Source of the DNA: Clostridia bacterium
GTDB lineage: Bacteria > Bacillota > Clostridia > Christensenellales > CAG-138
Direction: 5' to 3'
Length of the DNA: 64,000 nucleotides
Assembly: GCA_030526995.1 (NCBI GenBank)
Contig: JAUNBP010000001.1
Location: 1-64,000, forward strand
Below the pieces are notes generated by a model that was not told the DNA's origin, made no database searches, and saw only the letters and a program-made list of their open reading frames with translations. Each line of letters opens with the position of its first letter. Within the stretch, counting starts at the first letter, position 1. Shown here piece after piece: positions 96 to 29,013 of the stretch. A program made the translations under genes and the position numbers.

Positions 96-857
96 CTAAC
101 CCCCCGTAACTATAGCAACGGTAGCGGAGCAGCCGAACCGCTGGGCGCCGGCGGCTTGGAGCTCACGCACGGTCTGGGCGGTCTTAATCCCGCCGTCAAT
201 CTTGATGCCGATTCTGCTGCCGAGCTGTTTTCTTACAAAGGCGACGTCCTCGGGAACGGCTTTTTTGCCCGTTAAAGCATTGCTAATCTTCATAAAAGGG
301 GCCTTGCTCTTTTCAATGACTTCGAGGATGTGCTTCTTCTCGTCGTCGGAGTACAGCCCCTGCTCATAGATGGCCTTGCAGACGGCACGGTTGCCGGCGA
401 CGTTCAGCATCTCGCAGAGGTCACGATAGACAACGTCCCATTGCCCACTCTTGGCTGCAACGATATTAAGGGAGAGGTCGAGCTCCCTTGCTCCGCTTTG
501 GATGCAGTAGCGTATCTCGGCGCACTTGCTCTGCAAGGAGGCAGCCCCATGGGGGAAGCCCACGGGCGCACTTACAAGGACGTTGCTTCCCGCAACGTAG
601 CGAGCGGCTGCGGTTACGAAGTACGGCGTTACGCAGATTGCAGCAAAGCCATAGCGAACGGCGTCGGCACAGCCCTCATGAATCTTTTTGTCGTTGGTAT
701 CGGGGTTTAGCAGCGAGTGCTCCAAAACGCCCGCAAGCTCCGAGTGGACGGCTGCTGCAGGGTTGCAGGTGCAGCTTTCGCCCTTGTTTGGCTTTTCGTT
801 CGATAGCGCAAGGCGAACCTTCTCCCTAACGAGCGAGGCGATAAGTTCTTCGTTCAT
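96..857 (-). CDS. Divergent deoxyribose-phosphate aldolase paralogue of the BMC
   Basis: A 253-residue DeoC/DERA-family TIM barrel. The barrel lysines are kept (K in FMKIS and in GIKIDGG), as is the Asp of ARELDLSLN. The family signature DHTLLKP has become EHSLLNP, the STG after the Schiff-base Lys has become SNA, and the C-terminal Ser-Ser phosphate site is GCSAT, so substrate or activity may differ from classical DERA. The first 20 residues (MNEELIASLVREKVRLAL) form an amphipathic helix followed by a polar linker with CTC, typical of a BMC encapsulation peptide. The ATG at 857 is preferred over an upstream TTG at 875 because AAAGGAG lies just before it. It is the last gene of the BMC operon in this window; no terminator is seen between it and base 1. 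Family assignment is firm; activity is uncertain. Confidence 0.85.
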   Translation of the reverse strand: MNEELIASLVREKVRLALSNEKPNKGESCTCNPAAAVHSELAGVLEHSLLNPDTNDKKIHEGCADAVRYGFAAICVTPYFVTAAARYVAGSNVLVSAPVGFPHGAASLQSKCAEIRYCIQSGARELDLSLNIVAAKSGQWDVVYRDLCEMLNVAGNRAVCKAIYEQGLYSDDEKKHILEVIEKSKAPFMKISNALTGKKAVPEDVAFVRKQLGSRIGIKIDGGIKTAQTVRELQAAGAQRFGCSATVAIVTGG

Positions 858-877
858 AGCGGCTCCTTTTGCCAAGG

Positions 878-2586: not shown

Positions 2587-3912
2587 TTAAGCCTCCAATT
2601 CAATGCTGTCGGCGGAAATTTTCACAACCCTTCCCGAAATGGAGGCGTGAATGTTTGCACCCAGCGCCTTTTCGGGAATCATTGCAATCAAATCGCCCTC
2701 GCTGACCATGCTGCCCTCCTGAACTATGGGCTCGGAGGGTGCGCCTATGTGTTGACGCAGGGGTATAACCACACGGTTAACCCTCAAAGCGGGACTTATG
2801 GGCGCAGGAACGTCATATTTTTTCAGGCCCATCCTCGCAATCAGGCGGGAGACGGGAACCTTCTTTGTATCGATGGCGGGATCGGGGGAAATCTCCGTCT
2901 CCGCAACGGGCTTTAAGCCCTGATTGGCAAACTCGGCCTTGAGCTCCGCCATAATGGAAGCGGGGTCGAGCCCGAAGTTGCAGGCATAATTGGTGCAAAG
3001 TCCGCAGGAGCAGCAGGCGAGAACCGAGTTGGGATCGCCTATCAGCTTCCCGTCGCCGTAGGCCGCGGCACGCATGGCCTTGTGCGGCTGAACGTGAAGC
3101 CCAAGCGCATTGCGGGGGCAGAGCTGGGTGCATTGGCTGCACTGACAGCAGACGGCCCTTGCAAGCGTAATCTGCCTTGAGAGCGACCCACTGCGCTTTT
3201 GAACGTAGCCATGCCCCTTGGGCAGCAGGATAAGCCCGCCCGTGGTCTTGGTTATGGGAAGGTGCGGGTTGGAAACTATCCTGCCCATGCAGGGCCCGCC
3301 CACCAAGAGGACGTAATCGTTGATGTCGCCCCTAATGCCCGCCCACTCCAAGAGGGTGTAGGCATCCGTGCCTATCGGAACCTCGTAGGTTGCGGGGTTA
3401 TTGACCTCGCCCGAGACCGTAACGTACTTGCATGTTACGGGCACGCCGCCGTAGGCAAGGGCTACGTTGAGCAGGGAGCCCACGTTGCAAACCACAACCC
3501 CGACGTCGGCGGGCAGCTTGCCTGTCGGAACCACGCGCTTTGTAACCTCGTATATCAAGGACTTTTCGTCGCCTGCGGGGTAGTAGCTCTTCATCTCATG
3601 CAGGCGGATGGAGGGAAAGTTTTTAAGTGCAGCCTTGATGGCGGCAACAGCACCGTGGTAGTGGGACTTTGTGGCAATAACGCCCGATTTTGCGCCCACG
3701 GCTTCCATGGCAAGCTCAAGACCTCTGAGAATCCTTTCGGCTTCCCTTTCCATGAGCTGTTGGTCGACTCTAAGTATGGGTTCGCACTCGGCACCGTTTG
3801 CAATGACTATCTCAGCCTTGCAATTCAGCTTGACATGGGTCGGAAACCCCGCACCGCCTGCGCCGACAACGCCCGCATCCTTTATTCTATTGAAAATGGT
3901 GTTGTTTGCCAT
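2587..3912 (-). CDS. PduS-like RnfC-type flavo/iron-sulfur electron carrier
   Basis: A 441-residue RnfC/NqrF-type protein of the PduS branch. It has an N-terminal glycine-rich segment (AGVVGAGGAGFPTH), an NADH/FMN-binding SLBB-type core, two ferredoxin cysteine clusters (CCQCSQCTQLCP and CCSCGLCTNYAC, about residues 255-315), and a C-terminal biotinyl-like barrel. PduS oxidises NADH and was described as a cobalamin reductase in propanediol BMCs. No B12-dependent enzyme is encoded here, so a role in NADH re-oxidation with transfer to the PduT-like pore is more likely. The start at 3912 (MANNTIF) follows GGGAG; the upstream TTG at 3927 overlaps that site. Confidence 0.9.
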   Translation of the reverse strand: MANNTIFNRIKDAGVVGAGGAGFPTHVKLNCKAEIVIANGAECEPILRVDQQLMEREAERILRGLELAMEAVGAKSGVIATKSHYHGAVAAIKAALKNFPSIRLHEMKSYYPAGDEKSLIYEVTKRVVPTGKLPADVGVVVCNVGSLLNVALAYGGVPVTCKYVTVSGEVNNPATYEVPIGTDAYTLLEWAGIRGDINDYVLLVGGPCMGRIVSNPHLPITKTTGGLILLPKGHGYVQKRSGSLSRQITLARAVCCQCSQCTQLCPRNALGLHVQPHKAMRAAAYGDGKLIGDPNSVLACCSCGLCTNYACNFGLDPASIMAELKAEFANQGLKPVAETEISPDPAIDTKKVPVSRLIARMGLKKYDVPAPISPALRVNRVVIPLRQHIGAPSEPIVQEGSMVSEGDLIAMIPEKALGANIHASISGRVVKISADSIELEA

Positions 3913-3928
3913 TATCAATTCTCCCAAA

Positions 3929-5335
3929 TCATACTATTCTGAAATCACCGTACAGCACGCACCTGCGGAAGCGGGTGAACGAGCGTGCGCTCGTTAGGCC
4001 CTCGCCCGTGGGCGTTGCAATCGTAAGCGTGGGGTAGCCCTCGCCGCCAAAGCCGAGCCCGGCGTAGGAGGGAGCGTTTTTAACGAAGATGGTCGTGTTC
4101 ATCTTCCGTGCAGCCTTGCTCATGTTCTTGACGTTGGTAGAGTGTATGAGTGCGCTGTGCTTGCAGCCGTGTTCGGCCTTAAAGGCCTCGTCAACGGCTT
4201 GGTCTATATCCCGAACTCGGGCGCAGCCGAGGACCGGCATCAGCATCTCGGTCTCGATGAAGGGGTGCCCTATCGGAACCTCTGCAATTATGATTCGGGG
4301 CTCGCCCGTAAAGGGTACGCCCGCATCCCTTAGGATTACAGATGCGTTGCGCCCAACGTACTTGCGGTTTATAACGTGCTTGCCGTTCTTTTCAATCAGA
4401 GTAGTTTTTACAACCTTGTCTATGTCGTTGCCGTAGATACGGAAGGCCCCCTCGTTTTCCATGAGCTTCATAAGCTCGTCAAAGATATTGTCAAACGCAA
4501 AGACCTCCTTTTCGGCTACGCAGAGAACGTTGTTGTCAAAGCCGCAGCCGTCAACGATGTGCTTTGCCGCATCCTTCAAAATGGCGGTGTCGTCAACTAT
4601 CACCGGGGGATTGCCGGGGCCCGCCGCTATGACCTTTTTCGTGGTTTTCATTGCAGCAGCCACGACCGCCTCGCCGCCGGTTATGGAGAGCAGGGGGATG
4701 TCGGGATGATTCATAATGATGTTGCCCGTCTCCAAGGTCGGTTCCTTGACCGTGGTTATCAGGGAGGAGGGGCCGCCCGCAGAGACTATGGCCTCGTTCA
4801 AAATGCGGATGGTCTCCTGACAGCAGCGTTTTGCAGCGGGGTGGGGGTTGAACACCACGGCGTTGCCGCCCGCTATCATAGAGATTGCGTTGTTGATAAC
4901 CGTAGAGGTCGGGTTTGTCGACGGGGTGATGGAGCCGATAACTCCAAACGGCGCCTGTTCAATGAGCGTCATGCCGTTATCGCCCGTAAAGGCACGGGGC
5001 TGCAAGTCCTCAATGCCCGGGGTGTGGTTGGACGCCAAGAGGTTTTTTTGAATCTTGTGCGCCACGTGGCCGTAGCCGGTCTCATCGCGAGCCATGATTG
5101 CGAGCTTTTCTGCGTTGTCACGGCCCGCCCTGCGCATGGCGTCAATGAGTTCGCCCCGCTTTTGCAGGCTTAGCTCCACAAGCTCCTCTTGAGCTGCCTT
5201 GGCGTTTTCCACCGCTTCCTCGGCGGTGTCGCAAAGGTAGTTGCGCCCGCCACAGTAGCACCTGCCCGTGTTGGCACTCAGGCTGCGTGTAATTTCATCG
5301 GATATTCTCTTGATTTCATCATTAGTCAGAGCCAT
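3929..5335 (-). CDS. CoA-acylating aldehyde dehydrogenase of the BMC
   Basis: A 468-residue PduP/EutE-type aldehyde dehydrogenase that would convert acetaldehyde plus CoA and NAD+ to acetyl-CoA and NADH. The catalytic Cys lies in DNNVLCVAEKE, the nucleotide site includes AGPGNPP, and the C-terminal LTSARSFTRFRRCVL block is typical of the family. Residues 1-20 (MALTNDEIKRISDEITRSL) form a predicted encapsulation helix, followed by a linker and the catalytic domain. It lies 4 bases after the third pentamer gene. Together with the aldolases it defines the aldehyde this BMC would confine. Confidence 0.95.
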   Translation of the reverse strand: MALTNDEIKRISDEITRSLSANTGRCYCGGRNYLCDTAEEAVENAKAAQEELVELSLQKRGELIDAMRRAGRDNAEKLAIMARDETGYGHVAHKIQKNLLASNHTPGIEDLQPRAFTGDNGMTLIEQAPFGVIGSITPSTNPTSTVINNAISMIAGGNAVVFNPHPAAKRCCQETIRILNEAIVSAGGPSSLITTVKEPTLETGNIIMNHPDIPLLSITGGEAVVAAAMKTTKKVIAAGPGNPPVIVDDTAILKDAAKHIVDGCGFDNNVLCVAEKEVFAFDNIFDELMKLMENEGAFRIYGNDIDKVVKTTLIEKNGKHVINRKYVGRNASVILRDAGVPFTGEPRIIIAEVPIGHPFIETEMLMPVLGCARVRDIDQAVDEAFKAEHGCKHSALIHSTNVKNMSKAARKMNTTIFVKNAPSYAGLGFGGEGYPTLTIATPTGEGLTSARSFTRFRRCVLYGDFRIV

Positions 5336-5654: not shown

Positions 5655-6587
5655 CTAACGTCTTTCTGTCAATTCCATGCCGAGCTGCCTTGCACGGTCA
5701 CGGGCAAGGGGCGTCAGCAGGGTATCCTTATCGAGCAGAAGCTGCGTCTGCCCCAATTTGTGGGCTTCTATAACGTCGGCCTCCGAGAGCATTCGCTTTT
5801 TGGAAGGCTCGGGCATAGCCCCTCGGTTGGTCTTTTGATTTATCGCACCGGACAGGGCGTACAGGGGCGCCTCCTTGTCGGGAACGATGTTGCCGAATAT
5901 GCGTCTGCCCTCTACTTTTGCGGGGGCTTCGGGCATGAGATAGTGGGTCTTATTCATCTTTTCAATCCTGCATATCGCATTTTCGGGCAGCGCACAGGCG
6001 TTGGCCTCCTCAACATCGATATGCGCCTCCAAAATATGAGCCTCGCCGCAGCGAACCTGAACGTTGTCAAAGACCGTTGCCCGCTTGCCCTCTACAAAGA
6101 GCCGCACCGCATCGCCGTTTTTAAGCCCGTAGAGCTTTGCCTGCGAGGTGGAGAGGTGGAGGTGCCTCGCTGCAACTATCACGCCTTTGGACAGGGTGAC
6201 TGAGCCCTTTTCCGTGGAAATAACTCCGCAAGGCGTGCCCTCGATATCGCCCGACATGCGAATGACGGGTGGGAGTCCGAGCTTGATGCAGTCGGAGGTT
6301 GAAAGCTCTATCTGGGTTTCGCTCCTTATGGGCCCAACGACCCGCAGCGTGAGCGAGCCCTTGGAGGTCTTAAAGGTCACCTGCTGATTCGACGCAAACT
6401 GATTGGGCTGCTTTAAGTCCCTCAGCTTGGTGAGTTCAAAGTCCTTGCCAAACAGGGCTTGAGCGTGCTCCTTGGACAGGTGAATATGGCGGTTGGAGGA
6501 GGCTGTGGGCACGAAAAACACGCCCTTTTTTGCAAACTCCTCGCAAACGAAATCTTCGACTATTCGCCTTATCCTCGTCTCGTCCAT
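5655..6587 (-). CDS. pduL: PduL-type phosphotransacylase with C-terminal extension
   Basis: A 310-residue protein. Residues 1-20 (MDETRIRRIVEDFVCEEFA) resemble an encapsulation helix. Two PduL beta-barrel repeats follow, each with the zinc-binding His-x-His (SNRHIHLS near 33 and ARHLHLS near 141) and the EAHIDVEEANAC block. It should interconvert acetyl-CoA and acetyl phosphate, recycling CoA inside the shell. Usual PduL is about 210 residues. The extra 80-90 residues end in a block reading SEADVIEAHKLGQ then TPLARDRARQLGMEL, similar in style to a small domain seen in EutT-type BMC proteins. That similarity is from memory and needs a profile search. Confidence 0.9.
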   Translation of the reverse strand: MDETRIRRIVEDFVCEEFAKKGVFFVPTASSNRHIHLSKEHAQALFGKDFELTKLRDLKQPNQFASNQQVTFKTSKGSLTLRVVGPIRSETQIELSTSDCIKLGLPPVIRMSGDIEGTPCGVISTEKGSVTLSKGVIVAARHLHLSTSQAKLYGLKNGDAVRLFVEGKRATVFDNVQVRCGEAHILEAHIDVEEANACALPENAICRIEKMNKTHYLMPEAPAKVEGRRIFGNIVPDKEAPLYALSGAINQKTNRGAMPEPSKKRMLSEADVIEAHKLGQTQLLLDKDTLLTPLARDRARQLGMELTERR

Positions 6588-6607: not shown

Positions 6608-7447
6608 TCAATACAGAACCTTGCGAAGCACGGCGTTGCCGGTGGGACAGGAGGTTCCGCCGTTTTTGCAGGCGCCGCAGTTAATGCAGGCCTTGGCGGT
6701 CGTGTCGCCCTCGACAATGTTCTTCGAGGAGCTTGCGCCTATCCTCGAGGCTCCCGCCGCTATCATGGCCTCGGCATCCGCCTTGGTGCGAACGCCGCCG
6801 GAGGCCTTAACTCCCATCGACGCACCTACGGTTGCCCGCATCAGGCGAATATCCTCCACGGTTGCGCCGCCGGTCGAAAAGCCCGTGCTGGTCTTTACAA
6901 AGTCCGCACCTGCGAGCTTGGATACTTGGCAGGCCTTAACCTTCTCCTCGTCGGTGAGAAGGCAGCACTCGATTATAACTTTCAAAAGTGCCTTGCCCTT
7001 GCAGGCGGCGACTACGGCTTGAATATCTTTGAGAACGAGGTCCCACTCGCCGCTCTTTGCAGCACCGATATTCATCACCATATCGACCTCCTTCGCACCG
7101 GCCGCTATGCAGGCTGCAGCCTCTGCAGCCTTAACCGCAGGCACGGTAGCCCCCAAGGGAAAACCCACAACGACGCAGGGGTTCACGCTCGTCCCCCTAA
7201 GCTGTTCGGCAACATAGCCCACCCAGCTCGGATTGACGCAAACGCTTGCGGTGTTGTACTTCTTCGCCTCGTCACAAACACGCTTGATATCGGCACGGGT
7301 AGCCTCCGGCTTTAACAAGGTGTGGTCAATGTACTTTGCAAGGTTTGCAGAGCCGCCTGCGGCGCACGGTTCCGTGCCGCCCGACACCTGCTGCATAACT
7401 TCCTTGACGATGCGGGATATCAATTGTTCCATCTGTTGATTGTCCAT
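6608..7447 (-). CDS. deoC: Deoxyribose-phosphate aldolase with C-terminal cysteine motif
   Basis: A 279-residue DERA that cleaves 2-deoxyribose 5-phosphate to acetaldehyde and glyceraldehyde 3-phosphate. It has DHTLLKPEA, Schiff-base Lys in [10 protein letters not shown], the second Lys in [10 protein letters not shown], and the phosphate-binding GASSS. Residues 1-20 ([20 protein letters not shown]) form a textbook encapsulation helix. Beyond the usual end it carries [17 protein letters not shown] (Cys254, 257, 260, 267), like a ferredoxin [4Fe-4S] site with a longer last spacer. The ATG at 7447 is chosen because GGAGG lies 8 bases before it. It is the first gene of the BMC operon. Confidence 0.93.
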
Positions 7448-7576: not shown

Positions 7577-7930
7577 CTACTCGAAGGTTAACACATTATC
7601 GCCGTCGTTCCACAGCCGTTCCATATTGTAATAGGAACGCTCCTCGGGGTGGAAGAGGTGAACGAGGATAAAGCCGTAGTCCAAGACTATCCAGCGTCCC
7701 TCGGCATAGCCCTCCTTGCGCTTGATTTCAAGGTTGAGCTCGGCGGACTTCTCCTCCAACTCATCGCAGAGCGCCTTGACCTGCGGCACCGCACGGCCGC
7801 TTGCAATCACAAACCAGTCCGCAACTATGGTCTTATCCCCCACATGAATGGCAATGACGTCCATCGCCTTCTTATCGATAAGGACGCCGCACAGCTTTTT
7901 AACGCTTTCCTCGCCAAATCTATTCTCCAT
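7577..7930 (-). CDS. rsfS: Ribosomal silencing factor RsfS
   Basis: A 117-residue RsfS/Iojap protein with the family blocks ADWFVIASGRAVPQVKAL, RKEGYAEGRWIVLDYG and HLFHPEERSYYNMERLW. It binds L14 of the 50S subunit and blocks subunit joining when nutrients are low. It overlaps the end of nadD-yqeK by 11 bases and has its own AGGAGG, an arrangement common in Bacillota. Confidence 0.97.
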   Translation of the reverse strand: MENRFGEESVKKLCGVLIDKKAMDVIAIHVGDKTIVADWFVIASGRAVPQVKALCDELEEKSAELNLEIKRKEGYAEGRWIVLDYGFILVHLFHPEERSYYNMERLWNDGDNVLTFE

Positions 7931-9065
7931 CGATACCTCCTAAATCTTTGTAAGCACGAAGCGTTGCAGGATGCAAGGCCCCGCCCTTCCTTTTAATATA
8001 CCAAATAGTTCGCTTTAGCGCAAGCAAAATCGCCCCATCGAGCGTCGATTCTGCACGAATTTTATCAACTCCGTCGAAATTTCTCGAAGGCTCTATCATA
8101 TCGGCAAGGTAGATTATCTTATCGAGCGTGCTCATACCCGCATCACCGGTGGTATGCAGCTCGATTGCACGCAAAATTTCGGGGTCGCAAACGCCAAAGT
8201 CCCGCCTTGCAATCATGGCCCCCGCCTTGGCATGGAGAACCATGGAAAACCTCGCCTCGCCCTTTGTCAGCTCCATCAGCTCAAAAAACGGAAGCTCCTT
8301 GGCACAGTCGTGAAGCAGGGCAGCGGTCAGGGCCTTTTGGGGGTCGGCGCCGTACCTTTTGGCAAGGCTTACGGCGGTTTTCATAACCCCGACGGTGTGA
8401 TCGAACTTCTTGGGGGAGAGCCTTTCATAAAGCAGCTTCAACCTCCGCTTGTGTTCAGGGGAGGAGTATAACCCGTTTTCGTAGATGTAATTTTCAACCC
8501 TTAAGGGAACCATATCGCATATCGGCTCTGCGGCTGCAACGCTCTGCCGAACCTGCGTTGAGGAAAGCTCGGCAACCGGGGGGAGCAGGATTACTTTGGA
8601 TCCGAGCCTGCGCTCAATCTCCAAAGCCGACTCGTCCTCCAAGCCCTGCATACCGCTGCGCCTGATGCAAACGAGGCTGCAATACGAGAGGATTCTCTCG
8701 GGCTCACGCCATGACAGAAAGGTTCTCAGCATATCGCTGCCAATGATAAAAAAGATATCCGTGCAGGGATGCTCATTCTTGAACTGTTCGAGCGTGTCGG
8801 CGGTGTAGCTGTGCCCGCCCCGAATAAGCTCCATGTCGTTTGCGACAAAGCCGTCCAAGCCCTCCGTGGCAAGCTGCACCATCCTAAGCCGCTGTTCGGC
8901 ACTCGCCCCGTCGGGAACAGCCTTGTGCGGGGGGATGTGATCCACCATAAAGTGAACCTCAAAGAGCTTCAGAGCTGATTTTGCAAGCTCAGCCATCTGC
9001 ATGTGTCCGTTATGAATGGGGTTGAAGGTACCGCCCAAAATTCCAATTCGCATTTTTTGTTCCAT
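7920..9065 (-). CDS. nadD: NadD-YqeK fusion: nicotinate-nucleotide adenylyltransferase plus HD hydrolase
   Basis: The N-terminal part (about 1-200) is NadD, joining nicotinate mononucleotide and ATP to deamido-NAD, with GGTFNPIHNGH and SSTQVRQSV. The C-terminal part (about 205-381) is a YqeK HD-domain hydrolase, with HTVGVMK and LLHDCAKEL; YqeK members hydrolyse Ap4A. These are separate neighbouring genes in Bacillus. Possible starts are ATG 9065 and ATG 9053; neither has a Shine-Dalgarno sequence. The -10 box ends 6 bases before 9065, which favours a leaderless start there. Confidence 0.93.
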   Translation of the reverse strand: MEQKMRIGILGGTFNPIHNGHMQMAELAKSALKLFEVHFMVDHIPPHKAVPDGASAEQRLRMVQLATEGLDGFVANDMELIRGGHSYTADTLEQFKNEHPCTDIFFIIGSDMLRTFLSWREPERILSYCSLVCIRRSGMQGLEDESALEIERRLGSKVILLPPVAELSSTQVRQSVAAAEPICDMVPLRVENYIYENGLYSSPEHKRRLKLLYERLSPKKFDHTVGVMKTAVSLAKRYGADPQKALTAALLHDCAKELPFFELMELTKGEARFSMVLHAKAGAMIARRDFGVCDPEILRAIELHTTGDAGMSTLDKIIYLADMIEPSRNFDGVDKIRAESTLDGAILLALKRTIWYIKRKGGALHPATLRAYKDLGGIDGE

Positions 9066-9071
9066 TATGTC

Positions 9072-9101
9072 ATTATAGTATAGTTTACCCCAAAAGGGCA
9101 A
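9072..9101 (-). promoter_or_regulatory. Promoter of nadD-yqeK, probably leaderless
   Basis: On the minus strand, TTGCCC (9096-9101) and TATAAT (9072-9077) are spaced by 18 bases. Only six bases separate TATAAT from the ATG at 9065, so transcription should start at or next to the initiation codon. Confidence 0.6.
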
Positions 9102-9111
9102 GAATCAAATT

Positions 9112-9843
9112 ATGGAACGAGCCTATTTCAAGCAAAAAATGTCGGGAGGCAAGGGTGCAGTATCGAGGGCGGTCGATGCCGTATTTTTGAGGGCGATACT
9201 CTTTGCCCTGCTGTACCTGCTGCTCCCAAAAAGCACAAACAGGCTCGCCGTTGCCATCCTCTTGGGCATAGCCCTTTGCATAGTGCTGCAACTCATAGCA
9301 AACGCAAGGCTTAAAAGGTTTATCGCAAGGGAAAGCCTCTCGATAAAAAACGAGATAAGGCGGGAAAGGCTGCTGATAATGCCCTACGATGAGCTTCGCG
9401 CCCTCATAGGCGAGGACAAGGCGCTTATCCAAAAGGCGGAGCCCATCACCCCAAACGACCTGCTTGAGACCATAAAAAGCCCTGCTACGGTCTGCTATGC
9501 AACCGCAGATTACACCCCGCAGGCCAAAACGCTTGCACAGAGGCTAAACCCAAGCCTAAAGCTCTTGGACGTCTGCGAGGCGGTGGATATTCAAATTTCC
9601 GACAGCGAACTGTCACACTATATTAAAAGCAAGATGCTCCTAAAAAAACAGCAGCGGCGCATCGGGGCGAGACTCTCCGCCATCGGCACATGGAAGTTCC
9701 TGCTCTTGGGCGCACTCATTACAACCCTCTCCTTTTTCACAAGGTACGCCGTCTACTACCGCCTGCTTGCAAGCGCAGCCTTCATAGCCTTTGCAGTCCT
9801 GTCCCCGTACAGGCGCAGCCTTATTAATTCGTCAAAAATGTAA
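9112..9843 (+). CDS. Unrecognised membrane protein
   Basis: A 243-residue protein I do not recognise. Hydrophobic segments lie near residues 24-39 and 44-62, and a pair near 193-210 and 214-230, suggesting four membrane helices around a charged central domain (about 65-190) that begins with basic stretches. There is no signal peptide or known motif. The start codon has no clear Shine-Dalgarno sequence; ATG 9139 is an alternative. It is divergent from nadD and precedes a YtrA-type regulator with its own promoter. Confidence 0.6.
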   Translation: MERAYFKQKMSGGKGAVSRAVDAVFLRAILFALLYLLLPKSTNRLAVAILLGIALCIVLQLIANARLKRFIARESLSIKNEIRRERLLIMPYDELRALIGEDKALIQKAEPITPNDLLETIKSPATVCYATADYTPQAKTLAQRLNPSLKLLDVCEAVDIQISDSELSHYIKSKMLLKKQQRRIGARLSAIGTWKFLLLGALITTLSFFTRYAVYYRLLASAAFIAFAVLSPYRRSLINSSKM

Positions 9844-27693: not shown

Positions 27694-29013
27694 ATGCGCA
27701 TGGTCGATTTGATTGAAAAGAAAGTTCAAGGCTTGGAACTGACGGAGGAAGAAATTAAATACATAGTAGATGAATTTGTAAACGGCGATATGCCCGATTA
27801 TCAAATGTCTGCATTCATGATGGCGGTCGTATTCAACGGCATGACCGAAAAGGAGACCGCAGACCTTACTATGGCAATGATGTATTCGGGAGATATAATT
27901 GACCTTTCGGATATCAAGGGCATAAAGGTTGACAAGCATTCCACCGGCGGCGTCGGAGACACGACGACCTTGGTGGTTGCCCCCCTCGTTGCGGCGTGCG
28001 GAGGCTCGGTAGCTAAGATGTCGGGACGTGGACTCGGGCACACCGGCGGCACCTTGGACAAGCTCGAATCCATCCCCGGGGTGAACATTGAGCAGCCCAT
28101 GGAGAGGTTCAAAGAGATAGTAAACAACATAGGTGTTGCGGTAATAGGTCAAACGGGCAACCTCGTGCCCGCTGACAAAAAGATGTACGCCCTTCGAGAC
28201 GTAACCGGCACGGTGGGCAGCATACCGCTGATTGCCACCAGCATCATGAGCAAAAAGCTCGCAGCCGGCTCCGATGCAATCGTTTTGGACGTCAAGACGG
28301 GCTCGGGCGCATTCATGCAAACCGTGGAGGACGCCCAAAAGCTGGCGCATCTCATGGTTCAGATAGGACAGCTTGTAAACAGGCAGTGCGTTGCGGTTAT
28401 CACCGACATGAATCAGCCGCTCGGCATGGCTATAGGCAACGCCTTGGAGGTCAGAGAGGCGGTGGAGCTGCTCTCGGGCAAGATAGAAAAGGGCGACCCG
28501 CTTTATGAGGTTTGTATGCTCCTCGGCACGCACATGCTGATACTCAGCAAGATAGCCACAAGCGAGGAGGAGGCCCGCAAAAAGCTCGAAGAGGCGCTGT
28601 ACAGCGGTGCAGGCCTTAAAAAGTTGCAGCAGATGATAGCAGCCGAGGGCGGGGATGCCTCCTACATCTGTTTGGAGCGCATCGATGAGCTCTGCAATGT
28701 TCGCCGCAAGCTCGAGATATATCCCAGCGAAAAGGGCTACATAAGCTCCATTCGTGCGGAGCGCATAGGCACCGCAGCGCAGATGCTCGGCGCAGGCAGG
28801 GCGACCAAGGAGGATAAGATAGACCCCGCCGTAGGTCTTGTTATGAACAAGCGGCTCGGGGACGAGGTTTCGCCCGACACCCCGCTTTGCACCATGTACG
28901 TAAACGACGACACGGCGCTTGAAGCCGCAATAAATACCTTCCGTTCCGCAATCGAGATATCGCAGAATAAGCCCGAATATCGCCCGATGATTTACGATAT
29001 AGTAAGGGAATAG
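27694..29013 (+). CDS. pdp: Pyrimidine-nucleoside phosphorylase
   Basis: A 439-residue enzyme that splits thymidine, deoxyuridine or uridine with phosphate, giving (deoxy)ribose 1-phosphate. The signature DKHSTGGVGDTTTLVVAPLVAACG, shown here as KHSTGGVGD, and the SGRGLGHTGGTLDKLE region are present; the lysine of the LTSKKLAAG-type loop is in IMSKKLAAG. With a phosphopentomutase, which is not in this window, it would feed deoxyribose 5-phosphate to the BMC aldolase. polA starts immediately after its stop codon. Confidence 0.97.
   Translation: MRMVDLIEKKVQGLELTEEEIKYIVDEFVNGDMPDYQMSAFMMAVVFNGMTEKETADLTMAMMYSGDIIDLSDIKGIKVDKHSTGGVGDTTTLVVAPLVAACGGSVAKMSGRGLGHTGGTLDKLESIPGVNIEQPMERFKEIVNNIGVAVIGQTGNLVPADKKMYALRDVTGTVGSIPLIATSIMSKKLAAGSDAIVLDVKTGSGAFMQTVEDAQKLAHLMVQIGQLVNRQCVAVITDMNQPLGMAIGNALEVREAVELLSGKIEKGDPLYEVCMLLGTHMLILSKIATSEEEARKKLEEALYSGAGLKKLQQMIAAEGGDASYICLERIDELCNVRRKLEIYPSEKGYISSIRAERIGTAAQMLGAGRATKEDKIDPAVGLVMNKRLGDEVSPDTPLCTMYVNDDTALEAAINTFRSAIEISQNKPEYRPMIYDIVRE

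Follow-up and report, generated by a model that had tools for sequence, protein, structure and literature searches.

A half-ferredoxin-like cysteine tail, probably a [4Fe-4S] site, on a deoxyribose-phosphate aldolase encoded among BMC genes

Class I aldolases work through a catalytic lysine and need no metal. What, then, are four cysteines, spaced almost as in a ferredoxin, doing at the C-terminus of one? The question is raised by the aldolase P0001, encoded near the start of the window, by which we mean the whole stretch of 64,000 nucleotides that was analyzed. Its gene lies beside shell-protein and enzyme genes of a bacterial microcompartment (BMC) locus, the far end of which is missing because the contig begins at the window start. 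The features are as follows, with the strand in brackets.

96..875 (-), second DERA paralog (DERA2), no cysteine tail; TIGR00126, 172.4 bits
878..1159 (-), BMC-P shell protein; PF03319, 76.9 bits
1168..1446 (-), BMC-H shell protein; PF00936, 100 bits
1449..1724 (-), BMC-P shell protein; PF03319, 60.8 bits
1728..2039 (-), BMC-H shell protein; PF00936, 101.1 bits
2039..2584 (-), PduT-like BMC-T shell protein with the motif CAGKY; PF00936, two stretches
2587..3927 (-), PduS/RnfC-like flavin Fe-S oxidoreductase; Complex1_51K, RnfC_N, Fer4_17
3929..5335 (-), acylating aldehyde dehydrogenase (AldDH); NF011927, 632.9 bits
5340..5645 (-), BMC-P shell protein; PF03319, 101 bits
5655..6587 (-), PduL-type phosphate acyltransferase (PTAC); PF06130, 211.6 bits
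6608..7462 (-), DERA-type class I aldolase P0001, 284 aa; TIGR00126 and PF01791
6611..6613 (-), codon of Tyr284, the C-terminal residue; stop codon 6610-6608
6611..6688 (-), half-ferredoxin-like C-terminal tail, C259 to Y284 (26 residues)
6686-6688, 6677-6679, 6668-6670 and 6647-6649 (-), codons of C259, C262, C265 and C272
6707..7345 (-), DERA barrel, residues 40-252
7382..7447 (-), N-terminal amphipathic helix resembling an encapsulation peptide, residues 6-27
7577-7930 (-), rsfS; PF02410
7920-9101 (-), nadD with an HD domain; PF01467, PF01966

Judged from its sequence, P0001 is a deoxyribose-phosphate aldolase, predicted to cleave deoxyribose 5-phosphate. It scores 288 bits against TIGR00126 (deoxyribose-phosphate aldolase; cut-off 117.3) over residues 41-249 and 79.4 bits against PF01791 (over 23.8), and a fold search covering residues 34-256 found the DERA barrel. 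The catalytic Asp/Lys/Lys are D127, K190 and K219, matched by motif and by eye to Asp102, Lys167 and Lys201 of PMC8403123, and all three are present in 33/33 rows of alignment A1, whose rows were picked for having the tail. Its substrate could come from the nucleoside side, as the phosphopentomutase deoB found in the same genome (492 bits) and a pyrimidine nucleoside phosphorylase encoded at 27694-29013 of the window (Pfam) would supply deoxyribose 5-phosphate to the aldolase.

The cysteines lie beyond the aldolase proper: the TIGR00126 match stops at residue 249, and the cysteines follow at 259, 262, 265 and 272, the codon of the first starting at 6688. A sequence-only reading of this DNA had already placed such a tail past the aldolase end, at residues 254-270. 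That numbering is consistent with a start at Met6, the start column of three relatives (L033, L034, L035); ours counts from the first ATG (284 aa). The spacing is CxxCxxC-x6-CP, as had been claimed, exceeding the ferredoxin motif by three residues. A motif CxxCxxC-x(2-6)-CP arose in 14/200,000 shuffles of the full protein and in 17/200,000 shuffles of its last 35 residues, and it occurs in 2/453 stop-to-stop ORFs of the window (at least 60 aa), namely P0001 and the Fe-S site of PduS. Together with the presence of the tail in relatives, the shuffles and the window ORFs led us to reject chance or assembly error as its origin.

Is the tail conserved, and where? A contig search with P0001 matched 588 stretches and gave 472 relatives, the best 80 of which were used; with CINCGACK among its six seed patterns, this search was biased toward tails. 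To detect BMC genes, window proteins were run as phmmer queries over loci of 3.5-18.9 kb, and "no BMC genes" means that none were detected there. Duplicates of the window and of L032-L034 and L036 (L001-L005) were excluded from the counts; L031 is the window's DERA2 and had no core match in the alignment. Among the best 80 of 472 relatives, BMC genes were detected at 34 loci and not at 46, and the tail is present in 32/34 of the former vs. 0/46 of the latter. Loss of the cysteines in relatives, named beforehand as the observation that would speak against the tail, was thus looked for, and the tail survived. The two of these aldolases at BMC loci that lack an intact tail are L109, which carries a different, N-terminal motif, and L069, a Synergistaceae aldolase (ORF end about 9744) in which an in-frame stop breaks the tail and the first cysteine is lost. 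An in-frame TAG is also found in the aldolase of L181 (the G993 match).

A further 37 aldolases (L142-L177), from regions picked by hand for a tail, an N-terminal extension or long coverage, include four with the C-terminal tail, all with BMC genes, and nine with an N-terminal cysteine motif, eight of them with BMC genes. Eighteen have neither motif nor BMC genes, and six have BMC genes but no cysteine motif (L142, L143, L144, L149, L152, L158), showing that encapsulated aldolases can manage without the tail. In the sets examined, the tail is restricted to BMC loci. One genome (G056; L150, L151, L152) has several aldolases near BMC-H genes, three of them with the cysteine tail (two in L150, one in L151). 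Searches of whole genomes used strict E-value limits and scored a subset of the candidates in each (often 6, or 13), which makes the following numbers minima. Among 391 evenly sampled genomes of the class, at least two contain a match extending to the profile end, namely that of the window and that of G215, and each of these has the cysteine tail; among 398 genomes of the phylum at least one does, at the limit used only the window's. The 185 genomes of the phylum of G834, a phylum taken as Synergistota because G834 holds the Synergistaceae locus L060, gave at least four near-whole-profile matches, one with an in-frame TAG.

Within the tail, constancy is concentrated in the motif and at the last residue. 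We compared 34 tail-bearing sequences (32 from the best 80 of 472 relatives, the window's and L006). The spacing between the third and fourth cysteines is x3 in 24, giving the ferredoxin pattern CxxCGxCxxxCP, x6 in five including the window, x2 in four and x5 in one. The last cysteine is followed by 12 residues in 33 sequences and 13 in one, and the final residue is Tyr in 33, including the window, and Cys in one. The linker before the first cysteine is variable. Both TGC and TGT codons are found at each of the four cysteines. Invariant over the 33 rows of A1 are Cys259, Cys262, Gly263, Cys265, Cys272, Pro273 and Gly275. In ten pairs dN was 0.10-0.33 for the tail vs. 0.06-0.18 for the barrel, meaning that the tail evolves faster.

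A tail profile built from 23 sequences (A3) matched 229 PDB sequences at E<=10; judged by their names, all of the 60 listed are ferredoxins, polyferredoxins or Fe-S subunits. All 23 tails matched the Pfam model Fer4_10 at E<=10, 14 further Fer4 models were each matched by 10 to 22 tails, and three zinc-finger models and ribosomal L32p were each matched by one. When the tail HMM was run over the ORFs of the loci fetched, the best non-aldolase matches looked ferredoxin-motif-like by eye. As the profile selects Fe-S proteins and all 23 tails match Fer4_10, we favor a [4Fe-4S] cluster over zinc, and one such cluster probably occupies the tail. A range of x2 to x6 between the third and fourth cysteines is unusual for a ferredoxin. 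The window tail itself departs from the Fer4 spacing CxxCxxCxxxCP by its x6 and falls below the gathering score of each of six listed Pfam models (best 18.6 vs. 27 bits), and because of this spacing and score we call it half-ferredoxin-like and do not file it under Fer4. AlphaFold models of single chains are of low confidence in the tail (pLDDT 44-62 in P0001, 53-61 in L057) and show neither a ferredoxin fold nor half-ferredoxin strands.

The nearest known parallels are ferredoxins and pieces of them. Clostridial-type 2[4Fe-4S] ferredoxins (1clf, 1fdn) share with the tail a CxxCGxCxxxCP-like motif, the proline after the last cysteine and the profile matches, whereas the aldolase tail has a single motif, is fused to an enzyme, has x6 in the window and has no predicted beta-alpha-beta fold. 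Closer in size are the designed semidoxins and PD1, a natural half-ferredoxin from Thermoanaerobacter; such peptides are about 28-30 residues long and hold a single cluster motif, and natural ones occur in anaerobes (PMC12648291). Semidoxins and PD1 are, however, free peptides, the function of PD1 being untested (PMC12648291), while the tail, similar in length and likewise with one motif, is part of a 284-residue enzyme, encoded beside BMC genes and ending in a conserved tyrosine. On BMC proteins, Fe-S sites or suspected Fe-S C-terminal extensions are known from PduT, GrpU and the tetracysteine extension of PduK (PMC6325248); those are shell proteins, and the tail-bearing aldolase is a cargo enzyme. 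In the literature searched, which included PMC8217296, PMC4207490, PMC8403123, PMC6325248, PMC8547011, PMC10266427, PMC12648291 and PMC12920312, we found no description of a DERA whose tail carries such cysteines or an Fe-S site.

The conserved last residue, to which the sequence-only reading had not drawn attention, suggests what a cluster might do there. In E. coli DERA, a C-terminal tyrosine (Tyr259) takes part in catalysis and reaches the active site, and the last residues are mobile (PMC8403123). P0001 has the barrel, the Asp/Lys/Lys and the very C-terminal tyrosine in common with that enzyme, to which it adds the cluster-like module before the tyrosine and the N-terminal encapsulation helix. 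In the mechanism that we propose, CxxCGxC and the CP cysteine would bind one [4Fe-4S] cluster per chain, in a module ending in the presumed equivalent of the active-site-reaching tyrosine. The cluster would make this module rigid, and the tyrosine could shift if the cluster were lost or oxidized. Going further, and with less behind it, the cluster might act as a switch set by redox state or oxygen, ordering the catalytic tyrosine or setting it free, such that acetaldehyde would be produced only with the organelle intact and anoxic. As a whole, a cluster-bearing half-ferredoxin module combined with such a switch is offered tentatively; the redox switch on the tyrosine is the more weakly inferred part. 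If a cluster module in the catalytic tail is real, BMCs would gain a way of coupling cargo activity to redox state, and ferredoxin evolution would have, in a natural enzyme, an instance of its half-ferredoxin stage, for which designed peptides and one natural peptide have been tested (PMC12648291). Rather more doubtful is a broader version, in which encapsulated aldolases would carry a natural semidoxin, a Dayhoff-type half-ferredoxin serving as a working enzyme module, with the cluster state controlling the catalytic tyrosine and the aldolase acting as a redox-sensing gate of the organelle, and in which, given a second BMC-aldolase lineage with four cysteines N-terminal to the barrel, metal modules would have been recruited repeatedly.

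Could the tail instead serve electron transfer, with the aldolase as a scaffold linking PduT to the oxidation of NADH by PduS, or docked to them through its tail? Both of these Fe-S proteins have been proposed to carry electrons across BMC shells (PMC6325248). They are encoded together at 23/32 tail loci (best 80 of 472 relatives), with seven of the other nine cut by a contig end, and the PduT motif C[AP]GK is present in 27/27 PduT sequences listed. Yet at two tail loci (L045, L051) both genes are missing from between AldDH and the shell genes, and at a third (L148, in G215) they are absent over 20 kb. The best PduS matches in these three genomes reach 119, 126 and 158 bits, vs. 532 and 481 in the genomes of L059 and L076, and the weaker ones have a barrel piece ahead of the 51K-like part, which we read as the RnfC order; L045 and L051 come from MAGs that may be incomplete. 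Conversely, L142, L149 and L158 have PduS and PduT but lack the tail, the genome of L149 having a tail-bearing aldolase elsewhere (L036). The tail is thus not strictly tied to PduS-mediated electron transfer, docking to PduS or PduT is weakened by L045, L051 and L148, as is the idea that these proteins are the sole reason for the tail, and we regard the relay as unlikely.

A zinc-binding clip that stiffens the C-terminus or joins subunits is somewhat less likely still. Four cysteines inside 14 residues could bind zinc, and the tolerance of the last spacing (x2-x6) would suit this, but CxxCGxC...CP with a proline after the last cysteine is the ferredoxin pattern, and both the names of the 60 listed PDB matches and the Fer4 matches of nearly all tails speak against it. 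The sequence-only reading had offered a cluster, zinc or docking to the electron-transfer proteins as roles for the tail; the cluster is best supported, by the tail profile and Fer4_10, zinc is disfavored and docking is weakened.

We consider it equally improbable that, in an aldolase dimer, the two tails combine into one whole 2[4Fe-4S] ferredoxin fold in which the CP cysteine of one chain serves the cluster of the other. The tail does resemble, in length and motif, designed semidoxins of 28-30 aa that homodimerize (PMC12648291), and the E. coli DERA crystal contains a symmetric dimer (PMC8403123), but the x2 to x6 range should not fit a tight ferredoxin fold, and the strands expected of each half are absent from the low-confidence tails of the monomer models of P0001 and L057.

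Least likely of all, and very improbable, is a tail without metal, its thiols forming disulfides or the tail serving as a second cargo-docking peptide: it is short, sits on a variable linker and, in the set compared, always accompanies an N-terminal extension, but the encapsulation helix is already at the N-terminus, and disulfides would need neither CxxCGxC-CP nor a profile that selects ferredoxins. That helix spans residues 8-27 in the AlphaFold model, where the hydrophobic moment of 0.55 was reached in 16/10,000 shuffles, and on these grounds the tail was rejected as an encapsulation peptide. Aldolases with an N-terminal extension, several of them encapsulation-helix-like, and without a cysteine tail also occur where no shell genes were detected nearby (L068, L077, L078, L081, L159-L163).

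How might an aldolase with a [4Fe-4S] tail have arisen? The closest barrels to those of the window group are encoded by tail-less deoC genes that, like the window's, have nadD and rsfS as neighbors; nadD was seen at 12 tail-less and 4 tail-bearing loci (best 80 of 472 relatives). For a tree of barrels, 67 tail-less rows without the extension were thinned to 46 and L030, L007, L008, L049 and L077 were dropped, leaving 80 rows. In it, five tail-bearing rows of the window group share a clade (100/99) with 14 tail-less rows, separate from the main group of BMC aldolases. The tail label changes 7 times on this tree vs. a shuffled mean of 25.7, a count that does not tell gain from loss. A topology constrained to unite the window group with the main BMC group was weakly rejected (AU p 0.032, 33 rows), and one uniting every row that has the N-terminal extension was not rejected at 0.05 (p 0.079, 37 rows). 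The closest tail-less barrels end at ...IIEG, the exact point where the tail starts, and the N-terminal helix is missing from nadD-linked tail-less relatives (e.g. L043, L044, L047). That a housekeeping deoC gained both the helix and the tail on becoming BMC cargo is reasonable but unproven.

A parallel arrangement is found at the other end of the protein. In ten aldolases from other lineages (L109, L154, L156, L157, L164-L167, L171, L174) a motif C-x6-C-x2-CG-x-C-x3-N lies between the N-terminal extension and the barrel. L109, L154, L156 and L157 are near-identical at this motif, and 9/10 are at loci with BMC genes, L167 having only AldDH nearby. Fer4 matches of the motif are weak, and its profile (A4) gave 26 PDB matches, mostly aldolases or unrelated proteins with a few late Fe-S entries, and did not select Fe-S proteins. 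If the motif binds metal, four-cysteine modules would have been taken up more than once by BMC aldolases. L109 itself (8092-9732, 546 aa) has about 250 residues without a Pfam match between a helix-like start and the motif.

The surrounding locus resembles the sugar phosphate utilization (SPU) BMC loci, with which it shares a DeoC-type aldolase, AldDH, PduL and shell proteins, PduS occurring in some (PMC8217296, PMC4207490). The DeoC-type aldolase (pfam01791) is present in the window as PF01791 beside shell genes; no mention of a cysteine tail was found in passages of those two papers. In contrast to SPU loci, RpiB is not in the locus of the window's genus relatives: RpiB (pfam02502) has one match each in G000, G001 and G002, on a contig other than the aldolase's, the window locus being cut at the contig start. 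At another tail-bearing locus (L036, in G033) RpiB is present after DERA2, at 97 bits. The N-terminal cysteine cluster of the window's AldDH, CYCGGRNYLC, was considered and set aside, as it is not conserved in the other loci listed. Residues 262-303 of the PTAC (5655-6587) match TIGR02536, a hypothetical family of ethanolamine utilization, at 25.1 bits, below the cut-off. DERA2 (96-875) keeps, by eye, the catalytic Asp/Lys/Lys and not the usual phosphate-binding serines, and a relative of it is found in most tail loci. The Christensenella hongkongensis locus (L059) adds a Sugar-bind regulator domain (PF04198), a zinc-type alcohol dehydrogenase, an FGGY sugar kinase, triosephosphate isomerase and an ABC transporter ATPase.
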